DNA of 64,000 bases from Bacteriovoracaceae bacterium (lineage in GTDB: Bacteria; Bdellovibrionota; Bacteriovoracia; Bacteriovoracales; Bacteriovoracaceae): positions 62,001 to 126,000 of the forward strand of contig CANCFT010000006.1 of the NCBI GenBank assembly GCA_947377285.1, read 5' to 3'. Both the position numbers and the translations under genes were made by a program. Shown one piece after another: positions 54,815-60,411 of this stretch. Each line of letters begins with the position of its first letter. Positions within the stretch are counted from its first letter, which is position 1. The notes below the pieces were generated by a model. That model ran no database searches and was not told where the DNA came from. It saw only the letters and a list, made by a program, of their open reading frames with translations.

Positions 54815-54826
54815 ATTTATTTTTTT
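54805..54826. terminator. A/T-only palindrome between convergent genes
   Basis: AAAAAAATAAA and TTTATTTTTTT are perfect 11-base arms joined without a loop, located between two convergent stops. Such AT-only palindromes can act as weak two-way terminators, but base pairing is not strong. Confidence 0.35.
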
Positions 54827-55970
54827 ATTTAGCATCTTTTGCGTAAACAAATGCACGTTTTCTAATATTAGAAACGATATCACTTGAATGTTTCGTTTGA
54901 ATGTTAGTTTTATTCAAATTTTTTAATTTAATATTTTGATCATGCATTTTTATAATTTCTTCACCAATGGCCTTGCCTAATAATGGAGGAACTGCATTTC
55001 CTATTTGTCTCCATTGGGCAGAAAGAGGTCCTTTGAATATAAAATCACTTGGAAAGCTTTGAAGTGCTGCTGCTTCTCTTTGTGTGAGATAGCGATTTTC
55101 AGTTGGGTGAAAATAATTCTGCCGGTGAGTCATGATTGTAGGGCTAGGTTTTTTTCGATCAAGGCGTTGGTATTTAGTTTGCCGAAAACGATTTTCGCGC
55201 AAATTTTTCCAATCAACTCCGAGTTTAAGTTTCTTGGGTAAATAAGCTTCTTCATCTGCTTCGTACCGAATTCCTTTTCCTTCAGGGATACAAGCAATTC
55301 GATCTAGGTCTAATTTTGATTTAATCTTTGAAAGTTCTAAATCATGGTTATAAATTTTTCCATTTGCCGACTTCAAATTTTTAAGGGCCTCACCTACAGT
55401 TTTTATAGGACTATTAGGCATTGGAAATGTAATTGTTTCATGAATTCGCGAGCCAATGATTATAGTTCGTCTACGCCGTTCAGGAACGCCATAATTTTCT
55501 GAAGACATTACTTGAAAATTTAAGTGATATCCCATTTTTCCAAACAGCGTGATGATATTTTTAATCGTTTTTTGATTTTTTAAAGCAAGTAATCCCGTTA
55601 CGTTTTCAATGATCACATAATAAGGTTTTGTAATTTTGACAATTCTTATGAACTCTTTAAACAAAGAGTTTCTTAAATCGTTGGGATCCCCAACACCAAC
55701 TGTCGAAAAACCTTGGCATGGAGGTCCTCCGACAACAACATGAATAGGGTTATGATTAGTCAGAGATTTCAGTTCTTTTTCTGTTAGCTCTAAAACTGAG
55801 CCACAGTAGGTGTTTGCATGGTGGTGATTTGCTTTAAAAGTTTCAATGGCATTTTTATCCATATCAATTCCAAGCAAACACTTCATTCCGGCCAATTCTA
55901 AGCCGCAAGATAATCCGCCCGCACCTGAGAAAATATCGATAAAATTAAGTATATTTTTTGTTTTTGTCAT
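54825..55970 (-). CDS. DNA (cytosine-5) methyltransferase
   Basis: The 381-residue enzyme methylates cytosine at C5 using S-adenosylmethionine. Motif I is DIFSGAGGLSCGLELAG, motif IV is VVVGGPPCQGFSTVG with catalytic Cys85, motif VI is VIENVTGLL, motif VIII RRRRTIIIGSR, and motifs IX-X include YQRLDRKKPSPTIMTHRQN and IGNAVPPLLGKAIG. The variable target-recognition part between VIII and IX is short. No restriction endonuclease gene is adjacent, so it looks solitary. Its target site cannot be read from sequence. Confidence 0.92.
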   Translation of the reverse strand: MTKTKNILNFIDIFSGAGGLSCGLELAGMKCLLGIDMDKNAIETFKANHHHANTYCGSVLELTEKELKSLTNHNPIHVVVGGPPCQGFSTVGVGDPNDLRNSLFKEFIRIVKITKPYYVIIENVTGLLALKNQKTIKNIITLFGKMGYHLNFQVMSSENYGVPERRRRTIIIGSRIHETITFPMPNSPIKTVGEALKNLKSANGKIYNHDLELSKIKSKLDLDRIACIPEGKGIRYEADEEAYLPKKLKLGVDWKNLRENRFRQTKYQRLDRKKPSPTIMTHRQNYFHPTENRYLTQREAAALQSFPSDFIFKGPLSAQWRQIGNAVPPLLGKAIGEEIIKMHDQNIKLKNLNKTNIQTKHSSDIVSNIRKRAFVYAKDAK

Positions 55971-56023: not shown

Positions 56024-56734
56024 TTAAGCAGCTGTTTTTTTTCCCACTTCTTTATTGGGAAAATGGAAGATGAGTCCAGAGTCTTTGGGTTCTGGTTTAA
56101 TATTAGGCGCGAAGAAGTGATTTTTTTCTTGGTTCCAGGCCCAGTTTTTTTGAATTTTTTCAATTGAAAAACTGTAATTCAACTCTCGTTTCACATGGTG
56201 ATTAACATGATTCATCCATAAGTCTAATTGTTCAGAAAAAATAAAGACATTTTGCTTGTGAATCGAAATATGTTCTTTTAAAGCACTTATGAATAAATTT
56301 ATGCATTCTTCATCAAGGTCTTTTTCGGGTTCTTCTAAAAATATATATTGGCCCTCAAATATTAACGATTTGATTAAAGAACTTACTTTTCTCATCTGCG
56401 CATCTGTGTGGGCCGGAAGCTCATGGGGCAATGCAATTTTTTGATAAAGTTTTTCAAGATCTCTATTGGGTTGCTCTTTTAGAAATTCCTGAAATTGGAA
56501 CTCTCTACCTGCAGTTAGAGAATTTGGGCTAAAATTCATCAGAATATTTTCGTTGAGAGTTAATTCTGGAATCAGGCCATCACCACTTGAAACGTAAGAA
56601 AATTTATATGGAAGATTGATTTTATTAAATTTTAAAAAGGATAAAAATTCATTGAGTTTTGAAAAATTATTTTCAAAATCTGTTTTAGTAAATAAATAAA
56701 TTTCGAAGCTTTCTTCGAAGTTAACTTTTGTCAT
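56024..56734 (-). CDS. ABC-ATPase-like protein lacking a Walker A motif
   Basis: The 236-residue protein is given from ATG 56734, which has AGAG upstream; an ATG at 56752 is possible. It is similar in order to an ABC ATPase: KFSYVSSGDGLIPELTLNEN resembles the Q-loop region, AQMRKVSSLIKSLIFEGQ the signature helix, and YIFLEEPEKDLDEE Walker B and D-loop, then VFIFSEQLDLW the switch region. But there is no GxxGxGK[ST] in the N-terminal part and the signature is not LSGGQ. It is probably unable to hydrolyse ATP, or binds another partner. It is divergent from an MnmA-like gene that has itself lost catalytic residues. Confidence 0.5.
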   Translation of the reverse strand: MTKVNFEESFEIYLFTKTDFENNFSKLNEFLSFLKFNKINLPYKFSYVSSGDGLIPELTLNENILMNFSPNSLTAGREFQFQEFLKEQPNRDLEKLYQKIALPHELPAHTDAQMRKVSSLIKSLIFEGQYIFLEEPEKDLDEECINLFISALKEHISIHKQNVFIFSEQLDLWMNHVNHHVKRELNYSFSIEKIQKNWAWNQEKNHFFAPNIKPEPKDSGLIFHFPNKEVGKKTAA

Positions 56735-56861
56735 CAGATCTCTATCGACCATTGGGATGAAAATCTTAAAAAAATATTCACCGAGTTATGTGATCAGGAA
56801 TACCTATTTTCCACATATTAAAAATAATTTTAAAAATACTTTTCAGCGATATAATAGAGTC

Positions 56862-58085
56862 ATGATTATTAAACCTTCAAAACAAACAGTTTTAATTGCT
56901 ATGACCGGTGGTCTTGAATCGACTGTCGCTGCCTATTTGTTAAAGAAGCAAGGTTTTCGATGCATTGGTATTGGATTGCAATTATTCGAAGATGGTGAAG
57001 ATCCAGGCCCTTTTGGCGATGTTATGGTTACCGATTTAAATAAAGTGAAGAGTATATGTAACTATTTGGATATACCTTTTTATGCCGTAAACGCTTCTGC
57101 GCGTTTTGCAGATATAGTTCTAGATCCTGTTGTTGGCCGAATATTAAGTGGTCAAACTTTTGAACCAATTGTATTTTTAAATTTAGTATTGATGGATATA
57201 CTCATAGAAAAAGCTGCAAAGTTTAACACCAATCTAATCGCAAGTGGGCATTACGCGAAAGTATTAAAGAATCAAAAAACTGGAAGTTTTGAGTTAATGG
57301 TGGCCAATGATTTAGAACATGATCAATCCTATGTTCTTTCACGTTTAGGCCAAAAACATTTAGAACATCTTATTTTACCTTTGTCAGAAATACGAAAAAA
57401 AGAAGTAGAAAAAATTGGTAGCCTAATTAAAGTTGACTATCAAAAAAGGCTTAAAACTAATATTCATCACATTATGCGCGACCCAAGGATGGCGTTGTTT
57501 GTTGAGGGCCGATCCCCTAAAGATCTTCGCCGAACGGGCTCAATTTATGATTACCGTGAAGAAAGTCCGATTTGTGAACATATTGGTATTCACTATTATT
57601 ATATTGGACAAAAAAATCTCATTAAAAAAATTGAACCACCTATAGATCCCCTCAAGGAAGTTATTTCTATTATTCCTTTTAAAGGAAATATTTTTATTGA
57701 TTACCCCGATCGATTAAAATATTCACATGCACTGGTGAATCGTTTTATTACTTCCGGTAAAATTGATATGACTCTACCAATTGCTGTGTATGTTAAAATG
57801 TCTTCTGGTGGAACTAAAATACCCTGCAGACTTTATTTTAAAAATAATGATACTTGCCTCATTGATTTTGAATGTGAAAGACCCGGATTATTAATTCCTG
57901 GACAATTCTTTGTTTTTTACAGTCGATCGGCCGATAAAGGAAAAGTGATAGGCAGCGCTATTGTAGAAGTCGGCGGTATGTTTGCTAATAATGAATTCAA
58001 TACACTCCCAAAAAATAAGAAGGATTCAGATGAAGATGATGATGATGACAACAAAACAGTGCAAATCGAAAAAGTTCATTTTTAA
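56862..58085 (+). CDS. Divergent MnmA paralogue lacking catalytic cysteines
   Basis: From ATG 56862 the protein has 407 residues. It aligns with MnmA along its length: AMTGGLESTVAAYLL for the PP-loop (SGGVDSS in true MnmA), LIASGHYAKV, LEHDQSYVLSRL and YIGQKN. Neither catalytic cysteine remains: NPDVLCNREIKF is FEPIVFLNLVLM here, and GICFIGER is MALFVEGR. Thiolation of tRNA in the usual way is therefore unlikely. The C-terminus ends in an acidic tail (DSDEDDDDDNK) encoded by DNA that also holds the next gene's start. ATG 56757 gives a longer frame but leaves 5 bp to the divergent gene. A perfect TATAAT at 56850-56855 lies right before the start. Confidence 0.8.
   Translation: MIIKPSKQTVLIAMTGGLESTVAAYLLKKQGFRCIGIGLQLFEDGEDPGPFGDVMVTDLNKVKSICNYLDIPFYAVNASARFADIVLDPVVGRILSGQTFEPIVFLNLVLMDILIEKAAKFNTNLIASGHYAKVLKNQKTGSFELMVANDLEHDQSYVLSRLGQKHLEHLILPLSEIRKKEVEKIGSLIKVDYQKRLKTNIHHIMRDPRMALFVEGRSPKDLRRTGSIYDYREESPICEHIGIHYYYIGQKNLIKKIEPPIDPLKEVISIIPFKGNIFIDYPDRLKYSHALVNRFITSGKIDMTLPIAVYVKMSSGGTKIPCRLYFKNNDTCLIDFECERPGLLIPGQFFVFYSRSADKGKVIGSAIVEVGGMFANNEFNTLPKNKKDSDEDDDDDNKTVQIEKVHF
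58017..58024 (+). promoter_or_regulatory. Ribosome-binding site inside the preceding gene
   Basis: AAGAAGGA ends 5 bases before the ATG at 58030 and lies within the 3' part of the MnmA-like gene. It decides the start of the M28-like gene; the frame extends upstream to 57982, but no such site precedes that codon. Confidence 0.8.
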
Positions 58086-59217
58086 TTCAACACTTATTTC
58101 ACTATTGATTAGCAATTCTGCGGCTCATTCTTTTGAAATAAGTAATTATGAAAAAAAAATTAAAACAAATTTTAATATTACATCTGTTACAGAGAAAATA
58201 TCGAGAGATTCACTTGAGAAAAATTTAAGAGATTTTGTGGCCAGTGGACGCCCTTCTCGTTTTGTAGGAAGCCCCGGGCATCAAAAAGCTCAAGACTACT
58301 TAGAAGAGAAATTAAAATCTTTTCATTCAACTGGAGCAAGTTCTAAGAAAATTGAATTTATTCCAAATATTGCCAAGGCCGGAGAGTTTTATGCTGAAGA
58401 TTTTAAAAAAGAAGTTGTAGCGAAGATTTCACCAACAGACCCCAATTATGATCACTGGAAAGGCTTTACATTATCAATGATGAAAACTCTTGAGTCCGTC
58501 AAAGATAAAAAAGGTTATAATTTTGTATGGGAAAAAAAAGGAACTGTCTCTCCTGATGAAGTCCTTATCCTTGGCGCAAACTATGATACACTTTTAAATG
58601 ATCCTAAAACGATGAAAGTCGACTCAACTAGTTCAATGCCAGGAGCTGACAATAATGGAACAGGAGTGGCCGCACTATTATCAATGATAGAAATTCTTGA
58701 TAAATTAGATCTCCCTAAGACTGTCAGAATTGTCTTTTTTGATTTTGAAGAATTAGGATTTTCCGGCTCGAGAGACTATGTTGAAAGTTTAAAATCTAAT
58801 ACAACGACACAAAAAATTATTGGATATATTAATCTAGTGATGCTTGGAAATGATTCTAAACGTGAAGATAAAGAAAAAAAATTAAATAATATGAAACTGT
58901 ATTTGAGATCTCCTGGAGAAAAAGGGGCCGAAGATGATTTGGCCCTGACGACAATGATTACTAAAAATGGATCTCGACTTTATTCTCAAGTGGAATTTAA
59001 GCCTGAAGCCAACGGAATGAATTCGAGTTCTCATATTAACTTTTGGGCCGCAGGCTACCCAGCAATTTGCATGTCACAGAACTGGGAAAGTGATTTTAAC
59101 CCCCGTTTTCACACGCCAAATGACTTTGTAGAGACTTTGAATATAAATACTTATACCAATGCCTTTAGATATATTACAGGGTCTGTGATCGCTTGGAACT
59201 ATGGCGTGGTCAAATAG
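58030..59217 (+). CDS. Secreted M28-family peptidase-like protein with altered metal ligands
   Basis: The 395-residue protein starts inside the MnmA-like gene (56-bp overlap). It has a long basic N-region (MKMMMMTTKQCKSKK) and a signal peptide ending in SNSAAHS. M28 motifs are present in order: LILGANYDTLL, SMPGADNNGTGVAALL, VFFDFEELGFSGSRDY, YINLVMLGND and SSSHINFWAAGYPA. Compared with Aeromonas aminopeptidase, the first metal ligand His is Asn184 and the Asp of the fifth motif is Val270; Asp207, Glu240/Glu241 and His335 are kept. It may be inactive or bind one metal. It could be a glutaminyl-cyclase- or aminopeptidase-derived binding protein. Confidence 0.75.
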   Translation: MKMMMMTTKQCKSKKFIFNSTLISLLISNSAAHSFEISNYEKKIKTNFNITSVTEKISRDSLEKNLRDFVASGRPSRFVGSPGHQKAQDYLEEKLKSFHSTGASSKKIEFIPNIAKAGEFYAEDFKKEVVAKISPTDPNYDHWKGFTLSMMKTLESVKDKKGYNFVWEKKGTVSPDEVLILGANYDTLLNDPKTMKVDSTSSMPGADNNGTGVAALLSMIEILDKLDLPKTVRIVFFDFEELGFSGSRDYVESLKSNTTTQKIIGYINLVMLGNDSKREDKEKKLNNMKLYLRSPGEKGAEDDLALTTMITKNGSRLYSQVEFKPEANGMNSSSHINFWAAGYPAICMSQNWESDFNPRFHTPNDFVETLNINTYTNAFRYITGSVIAWNYGVVK

Positions 59218-59241: not shown

Positions 59242-60411
59242 ATGAATACACTCACTCAAGAAAAAACAAAAGCTCAGACCATGGTTATAGTCGGTATGTC
59301 CGGCGGAGTTGACTCGTCGGTTTGCGCTGCCCTCTTAAAAGAAGAAGGCTATAATGTTGTCGGTCTTTTCATGAAAAATTGGGAGGAGTTTGACGAACAT
59401 GGAGTCTGTCAGTCTTCCAAAGAGTATGCAGATGTTGTCCGAGTTTGTGAGAAATTAGATATTCCTTATTATTCGATCGATTTTATCAAAGAATATCGCG
59501 ACAATGTTTTCGCCCAATTCATTGAAGAATACCAATCGGGATTTACTCCTAATCCAGATGTTTTATGTAACCGCGAAATTAAATTTAAAGTGTTTTATGA
59601 AAAGGCCCGTGAATTGGGTGCAGACTTTCTGGCCACTGGACATTATTGCCAGAAAGTTCAGAATAATTCTAGAGATTTTTCACTCATTAAAGGGGCAGAC
59701 CCTCTTAAAGACCAATCGTATTTTCTCTACACTATTAAATCTGAAATTTTAAAACATGTTCTCTTTCCTATTGGTCATTTGCCTAAAACAGAAGTCAGAA
59801 GAATTGCAGCAAAATATGATTTGGCCACTAAAGATAAGAAAGATTCAACAGGAATTTGTTTTATTGGTGAAAGAAATTTTAAAAATTTTTTATCAAACTA
59901 TATTACTTTCACTGATGGAAATTTTGAAACTCTAGATGGTGCCATTGTTGGACGACATACAGGTGCAACTTATTATACGATTGGACAACGAAAAGGTCTA
60001 GGTCTCGGCGGACAAGGTGAAGCTTGGTTTGTTGTTGGAAAAAATATTGAACGAAATGTCGTTATAGTCGAAAGGGGAGAGAGTCATCCCGCTTTATACG
60101 CGGATACTTTAGAGGCCAGTGACTTATCTTTTACCAATGGAGAGTTTCAATTTGAACTTCCCTTTAGGTGTAAAGCTAAGATCCGCTACCGTCAAGCAGA
60201 TCAAGATTGTACCATTACTAAAATTGAAAATGGAATTGTCTATGTTGAGTTTGATATTCCTCAAAGAGCAATTACATTAAGGCAATCAATTGTCTTTTAT
60301 GATGGGAATAATTGTTTTGGTGGTGGCATGATTAAAAGTGCGGGGCCCAGCTATTATGAATCTAAAAAGCAGCTTTCTATCCCCACTATCCCCAATATTT
60401 TGGATCATTAA
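59242..60411 (+). CDS. mnmA: tRNA-specific 2-thiouridylase MnmA
   Basis: MnmA makes 2-thiouridine at the wobble position of tRNA for Lys, Glu and Gln. The 389-residue protein has the PP-loop GMSGGVDSSVCAALL, the first catalytic cysteine in NPDVLCNREIKF, the second in STGICFIGERNF, ATGHYCQKV, and YTIGQRKGLGLGG in the central domain. All key residues are present, unlike its upstream relative at 56862-58085. Its 3' end overlaps a small convergent gene by 26 bp. Confidence 0.95.
   Translation: MNTLTQEKTKAQTMVIVGMSGGVDSSVCAALLKEEGYNVVGLFMKNWEEFDEHGVCQSSKEYADVVRVCEKLDIPYYSIDFIKEYRDNVFAQFIEEYQSGFTPNPDVLCNREIKFKVFYEKARELGADFLATGHYCQKVQNNSRDFSLIKGADPLKDQSYFLYTIKSEILKHVLFPIGHLPKTEVRRIAAKYDLATKDKKDSTGICFIGERNFKNFLSNYITFTDGNFETLDGAIVGRHTGATYYTIGQRKGLGLGGQGEAWFVVGKNIERNVVIVERGESHPALYADTLEASDLSFTNGEFQFELPFRCKAKIRYRQADQDCTITKIENGIVYVEFDIPQRAITLRQSIVFYDGNNCFGGGMIKSAGPSYYESKKQLSIPTIPNILDH

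Follow-up and report, generated by a model that had tools for sequence, protein, structure and literature searches.

Results

Gene organization of the pseudo-MnmA locus

The window, namely the whole stretch of 64,000 nucleotides analyzed here, carries on its forward strand a gene for a 407-residue degenerate MnmA (pseudo-MnmA; 56862–58085), which was characterized using Pfam and NCBIfam models, a family alignment, trees, and dN/dS, and is nearest to the C-type of MnmA. An uninterrupted reading frame spans 56757–58085. The ATG at 56862 is the preferable start, since TATAAT, a −10-like element on the same strand (56850–56855), ends 6 nt upstream. Of 13 copies from the same genus, 12 likewise carry TATAAT directly before the start codon, consistent with a leaderless transcript. 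A looser TANNNT, located 4–9 nt before an in-frame ATG, was found in 33 of 80 family paralogs, a count for which the chance expectation was not computed. Downstream lies a canonical D-type mnmA (59242–60411, forward strand, 389 residues), which scored 449.9 bits against an NCBIfam cut-off of 284 and contains GMSGGVDSS, PNPDVLCN, and STGICF. It starts 1157 bp past the end of the pseudo-MnmA gene, as the original prediction of a normal mnmA 1.2 kb downstream had stated. The gene in between encodes an M28 family peptidase (58030–59217, forward strand; Pfam E = 2.1e-24), whose inferred start overlaps the 3′ end of the pseudo-MnmA gene. On the reverse strand, an ABC-ATPase remnant without Walker A (56024–56734; C-terminus KKTAA), detected through ABC ATPase profile matches, is the divergent neighbor, followed by a C5-cytosine DNA methyltransferase (54825–55970; Pfam E = 8.1e-69), which is present in 42 of the 72 loci compared.

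As shown by Pfam, residues 9–195 of pseudo-MnmA form a HUP/tRNA_Me_trans domain (PF03054, E = 2.5e-37), which was matched by all 54 aligned paralogs. The C-terminal barrel barely passed (23 bits against a cut-off of 20.6), and the central tRNA-reading domain (PF20259) gave no match in the window protein and E ≤ 0.01 in 32 of the 54 paralogs. Pseudo-MnmA fell under the cut-offs of both NCBIfam MnmA equivalog models (177.4 versus 284 and 146.3 versus 236.95 bits) and shared 27% identity with the adjacent MnmA over 255 aligned columns. These two were the only MnmA-like genes in the genome; a third was absent at E ≤ 0.001. An AlphaFold model of pseudo-MnmA with eight close relatives was poor (pLDDT 58.6), and a Foldseek search with this poor model ranked MnmA at the top (E 4.4e-17, TM 0.42, rmsd ~11). 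Phage records yielded 24 matches to pseudo-MnmA, and the 10 matches listed showed 23.6–27.8% identity.

Loss of active-site residues

The original prediction of an MnmA-like protein with an altered PP-loop was confirmed by the family alignment; residues 13–21 (56898–56924, forward strand) read AMTGGLEST in place of the GMSGGVDSS of MnmA. The same alignment revealed no Cys at any of the three active-site positions. The CxxC site is occupied by IVFL (residues 103–106, with I103 and L106; 57168–57179, forward strand), and the third cysteine is replaced by H203 within HHIMRDPRM (57468–57470, forward strand). All cysteines of the protein are found elsewhere, at residues 34, 66, 238, 322, 332, and 338. 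Thus, the claim that both thiolation cysteines are replaced held in that no Cys is near either site, but the second site is H203, and the MALFVEGR segment previously assigned to it lies about seven residues off. The losses were common to all 13 genus copies aligned, ruling out a sequencing error as their cause.

We then compared 80 paralogs, a set that includes two copies from genome G032 and leaves out pieces shorter than 300 residues (L110, and L091 in two pieces). The Cys triad was complete in 41 copies, absent from 35, and partial in 4; the cysteine losses are shared throughout the aligned genus copies, but not throughout the family. Among 79 paralogs judged for the PP-loop, 6 had SGGxDS, 19 had the relaxed form [ST]GGx[DE]S, and 54 were broken, many of them with Arg, Lys, or Ser at the second Gly. 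A broken PP-loop was also observed in 30 of the 40 judged paralogs that retain the triad. The region was absent from two aligned rows: L078, which stops at a contig end and was not judged, and L066, where the gap reflects start-codon choice and the DNA reads GVTGKLDS, i.e., broken. The MnmAs next to the paralogs had SGGxDS and DCC in 72 of 72 cases. In a separate case, the paralog of G072 (L180:7276-8493) reads GIRHSLDS in the PP-loop region; this genome is 96% complete, and no D-type mnmA was found in it.

Conserved positions were compared with nine genus copies thinned. Columns conserved in both MnmA types numbered 64, of which 18 are retained throughout the paralogs, 4 are retained in copies with the triad only, and 42 are lost, including MnmA K114, K156, R186, K199, R315, and R342. 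The loss of these columns, basic residues among them, makes the previously suggested binding of tRNA without thiolation appear less probable. The T-G-H motif of MnmA is kept at 0.87, 0.93, and 0.93 in the triad-less copies, and the window protein has S-G-H.

Distribution of the paralog

Bacteriovoracaceae include known predators. A profile of 54 paralogs, searched within Bdellovibrionota, gave a match of at least 314 bits in 106 of 129 Bacteriovoracaceae genomes, and the next match under this group, at 251 bits, was a D-type MnmA. The G072 copy was recognized as a paralog from its 217 bits versus 74 bits with the D-type profile; counting it, the paralog is present in 43 of 48 Bacteriovoracaceae genera. 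It was not found in G064, G065–G068, and G105, where mnmA is present in full or in pieces. Other family genomes without a full paralog are incomplete, or their copy is cut or not resolved. Within the genus of the window, 13 of 14 genomes had a match, with 52–100% identity; the one exception, G011, has a completeness of 84% and is spread over about 550 contigs. All seven relatives that bear names are MAGs, assigned to Bacteriovorax and other Bacteriovoracaceae; many of the genomes consist of hundreds of contigs.

Among the matches listed for 292 genomes of the phylum with at least 85% completeness, none outside the family exceeded 326 bits. Of the best 12 matches outside the family, 11 were read, and all had SGGxDS and the three cysteines. 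A literature search gave no MnmA paralog in Bacteriovoracaceae among the matches listed, and the main text of a study on predator markers (PMC4646340) makes no mention of thiouridylase, trmU, mnmA, or tRNA.

Relationship to C-type and D-type MnmA

MnmA is described as divided into DxxC-C (D-type) and CxxC-C (C-type) kinds (PMC11784392), and the C-type MnmA of Thermus thermophilus is described as carrying a [4Fe-4S] cluster (PMC8584467). Among 36 genomes that were read from other Bdellovibrionota families, 35 had a C-type MnmA and the exception, G282, had a D-type; this count is biased toward the C-type because 20 of the 36 were picked from high-scoring rows. The C-type MnmAs of these families are probably iron-sulfur proteins. 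Both types were present in 9 of the 36 genomes (G286, G287, G290, G291, G292, G303, G305, G307, and G310), each time on different contigs.

A quick tree, built from 108 rows without L143 and L138, placed the 48 paralogs in one clade, which was grouped with the C-types apart from the D-types. A careful tree, built from 39 rows, put the paralogs and the D-types each on one side of a branch with 100/100 support. When this tree was free, the paralogs fell inside the C-types (fork 82/89), and the C-types stood alone on one side in only 8% of 200 bootstrap trees. Constraining the paralogs to group with the D-type MnmA of Bacteriovoracaceae itself cost 60.6 log units (AU p 6.8e-05) and was rejected, indicating that pseudo-MnmA did not arise through local duplication of the adjacent mnmA, contrary to the original prediction. 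Constraining the paralogs with all D-types against the C-types cost only 0.12 log units (p 0.498) and was not rejected; hence the long paralog branch is not firmly placed within the C-types. At 12 columns that distinguish the two types, 69 of the 80 paralogs were closer to C, 6 tied, and 5 were closer to D. The paralog profile matched MnmA chains at 2e-71 versus 1.4e-07 for TtuA chains, and by this measure the paralog is closer to MnmA than to the Ncs6/TtuA class. As judged from the trees, the paralog clade lies nearest to the C-type MnmAs of other Bdellovibrionota, and the adjacent working MnmA is a D-type.

Selection and stepwise decay

Selection was analyzed with 12 paralog and 11 mnmA sequences. 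In the two closest pairs, dN/dS was 0.081 and 0.047 for the paralog, and 0.067 and 0.032 for mnmA. These values rule out a simple pseudogene and bear out the earlier view that the intact frame is not one. Across all genus pairs, with synonymous sites almost saturated, the paralog had a median pN/pS of 0.27 and mnmA one of 0.17, indicating that the paralog is less constrained.

The quick tree, with the motif columns excluded, needed 5 changes of the Cys triad, a minimum for that tree, and its well-supported branches force only 1. The window genus belongs to a group of 35 that is without the triad (support 90). Rooting on the intact C-type MnmAs makes the intact triad the older state, which was departed from in the window genus. 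Homologues with the cysteines in place, which had been named as evidence against the original prediction, do exist (the 41 triad-retaining paralogs), but under this rooting they represent the older state.

The nine other-family genomes that carry both types had an intact D-type in 9 of 9 cases and a C-type without SGGxDS in 7 of 9. Where only a C-type was read (26 genomes), SGGxDS was present in 25, and the remaining one was a fragment without that region. Because those copies lie in another part of the tree, the decay in other families looks independent. We read these patterns to mean that the presence of a D-type enzyme leaves the C-type copy free to lose its chemistry, and that the copy was nevertheless kept in Bacteriovoracaceae.

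Several individual copies were also recorded. Eight diverging C-type copies in families f23/f24 (L130, L131, L133, L137, and L150–L153) form a second, apparently independent set in genomes that also carry a D-type MnmA; seven of them keep all three cysteines, and seven are without SGGxDS. The paralog at L091:8669-10156 (G040) is in two reading frames beside an intact M28 gene and mnmA, which may be a real break or an assembly error. Stops were found inside the paralog matches of G071 and G054. In G028, the D-type mnmA (C10:204457-205553) is seemingly in two frames, through a frameshift or an assembly error, and the paralog on C5 is intact.

Acidic C-terminal tail

Pseudo-MnmA ends with a derived acidic tail (58011–58082, forward strand) terminating in EKVHF-COOH. 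The derived tail of the paralogs had a median of 37 residues and contained 27% D/E. A terminal Phe was present in 62 of 80 paralogs and in 50 of 68 after twelve genus copies were thinned, often as F-[KR]-F. The corresponding counts were 1 of 72 for the MnmA next door and 40 of 777 for other ORFs of the loci without the paralogs (124 of 967 with them included). The Phe tip was kept where mnmA follows directly without the M28 overlap (e.g., L076, L092, L095, L113, and L114). By its composition, acidic with a hydrophobic tip, the tail looks like a docking peptide. The C-terminal tip of SSB likewise consists of an acidic linker and a hydrophobic tip with a terminal Phe. The SSB tip and the paralog tail are alike in the acidic stretch, hydrophobic end, and terminal Phe, but the proteins differ, and any ligand of the paralog tail is only a candidate.

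Divergent ABC-ATPase remnant

Across 72 loci, the order paralog–M28–mnmA was observed in 48; mnmA lay within 150 bp of the paralog in 16 and within 6 kb in 4, and linkage was not seen in 4, some of which stop at contig ends. Altogether, mnmA was linked to the paralog and shared its strand in 68 of the 72. A homologue of the ABC-ATPase remnant was upstream and divergent in 55 of 72, and in 54 of these 55 it was divergent at less than 190 bp from the paralog. Its profile matched ABCE1 best (E = 4.4e-10) and also ABC-F chains, with ABC exporters scoring nearly as well; from the matches to ABCE1 and ABC-F chains, the region from the signature to Walker B is kept. The Walker A pattern was found in 0 of 55 copies, single-protein Pfam scans gave nothing convincing, and the AlphaFold model was poor (pLDDT 45.0). 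The remnant C-terminus is conserved and KKxAA-like, with a final Ala in 38 of 55 copies, and resembles ClpX-type degrons.

A remnant match of at least 57 bits was found in 94 of 129 genomes, 88 of which have a full paralog. The other six are G011 and G092, where the remnant is at a contig edge, G024 and G103, with a partial paralog beside the remnant, and G090 and G118, which were not resolved. The remnant was missing from 18 of the 106 paralog-bearing genomes, and it was not found in any of the 6 that have mnmA and no paralog; a weak match in G105 (~43 bits) resembles an ordinary ABC protein. Only 55 bp separate the methyltransferase from mnmA in G064, where the paralog, remnant, and M28 gene are all missing between them, an absence that one loss event could explain.

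Evolutionary distances of the paralog and remnant were correlated in 29 loci (partial r 0.42–0.47 after removing any third gene), and those of the remnant and other genes with the paralog removed were hardly so (−0.02 to 0.07). Stronger pairs were MnmA–methyltransferase (0.53–0.70) and M28–methyltransferase (0.48–0.67), and paralog–MnmA (0.37–0.59) was like paralog–M28 (0.40–0.59). These correlations are modest and single out no partner; therefore, the case for the remnant as a partner rests more on position and co-occurrence.

Discussion

The account that we find probable, with modest confidence, is that pseudo-MnmA is a pseudoenzyme, a displaced C-type-like MnmA kept as a non-catalytic binding protein. 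A D-type MnmA would have displaced the C-type enzyme in Bacteriovoracaceae, leaving the D-type copy as the one fit for thiolation of tRNA U34, and the C-type-like gene would have been retained for a second, non-catalytic job. Decay would then have proceeded stepwise; most copies have a broken ATP-binding PP-loop, and the cysteine triad is in general either complete or entirely lost, the latter in the window genus. The acidic tail with its hydrophobic tip, usually ending in Phe, may have been gained as a docking peptide, such that the most likely mode of work would be the binding of other proteins. The leading candidate partner would be the divergent ABC-ATPase remnant, followed by the adjacent MnmA. 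Only two features of pseudo-MnmA, its descent and its linkage to mnmA, hint that it may help to tune tRNA thiolation or translation. Regulation, as mentioned in the original prediction, may be close to this non-catalytic reading.

Alternatively, pseudo-MnmA may form a heteromer with the adjacent active MnmA, in which the dead homologue is needed for or tunes U34 thiolation like Ctu2/Ncs2. Its absence of cysteines in a thiolase homologue recalls the relation of Ctu2 to Ctu1 as described in PMC10067955, and the same-strand linkage to mnmA noted above favors this view. However, the same source describes E. coli MnmA as a monomer (PMC10067955), G065, G067, and G068 still have MnmA without the paralog, and the G072 paralog occurs without a detected mnmA. 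Furthermore, the distance correlation of the paralog with MnmA is no better than that with M28, and the two are not sister sequences, so we consider such a subunit possible but unlikely. Triad-retaining members could also be iron-sulfur sensors without ATPase function, of which the window genus would be a further reduced version. This would fit the broken PP-loops among the judged triad-retaining paralogs (30 of 40) and the cluster described for the T. thermophilus C-type MnmA (PMC8584467); the window protein has no triad, so sensing cannot be its present function, and we give this proposal a rather low probability.

We regard it as improbable that pseudo-MnmA is still an enzyme, i.e., a PP-loop ATPase that does not thiolate but acts on a different substrate. 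Adenylation of another substrate, which had been suggested earlier, is unlikely for the family because SGGxDS is kept in only 6 of the 79 judged copies and 54 fail even the relaxed pattern, although the window genus retains a conservative variant with both glycines, an S-to-T and a D-to-E change, and the T-G-H motif is well kept in triad-less copies (S-G-H in the window). Finally, the fast divergence of the paralogs (mean identity 0.29–0.35 within paralog groups versus 0.59 for the partner MnmA) and the copies of G040, G071, and G054, which are split or contain stops, would be expected of a functionless decaying gene whose frame is preserved by chance or because it overlaps that of M28. The closest-pair dN/dS of 0.05–0.08, the occurrence at ≥314 bits in 106 of 129 genomes, and the tail kept also without M28 overlap all oppose this explanation, making it highly improbable.

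Returning to the non-catalytic binding protein, a more specific and quite speculative version, to which we assign little probability, is a complex of two pseudoenzymes specific to Bacteriovoracaceae. Here, the dead MnmA and the ABC ATPase without Walker A would be expressed from one divergent promoter region, held by their conserved C-terminal peptides, and regulate tRNA thiolation or translation; given the degron-like end of the remnant, proteolysis may switch the complex.

The paralogs offer a bacterial case in which the stages of decay are found in living relatives, i.e., intact C-type enzymes, copies with the PP-loop lost and the cysteines kept, and copies with both lost that are still under selection. 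The case would connect the replacement of one enzyme type by another with the origin of a non-catalytic protein. In practice, 'MnmA' labels on second copies in Bacteriovoracaceae should not be trusted, and a second function of the MnmA fold is directly testable by deletion.

Pseudo-MnmA is like C-type MnmA in its HUP domain, the remnants of the barrel, its position as nearest in the free trees, and the three cysteines of 41 of 80 paralogs; in contrast, the paralogs mostly have a broken PP-loop and a derived acidic tail, and the window protein is without all three cysteines. With the adjacent D-type MnmA it shares fold and location, but that protein has 27% identity to it, an intact active site, and a separate group in the tree. 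The Ctu1/Ctu2 pair, as described in PMC10067955, sets a eukaryotic precedent for an inactive homologue that serves an active thiolase. Ctu2/Ncs2 is likewise described as a U34 thiolase homologue without the cluster cysteines (PMC10067955); however, its partner belongs to the Ncs6/Ctu1 class and is not MnmA, and eukaryotic thiolation depends on it.
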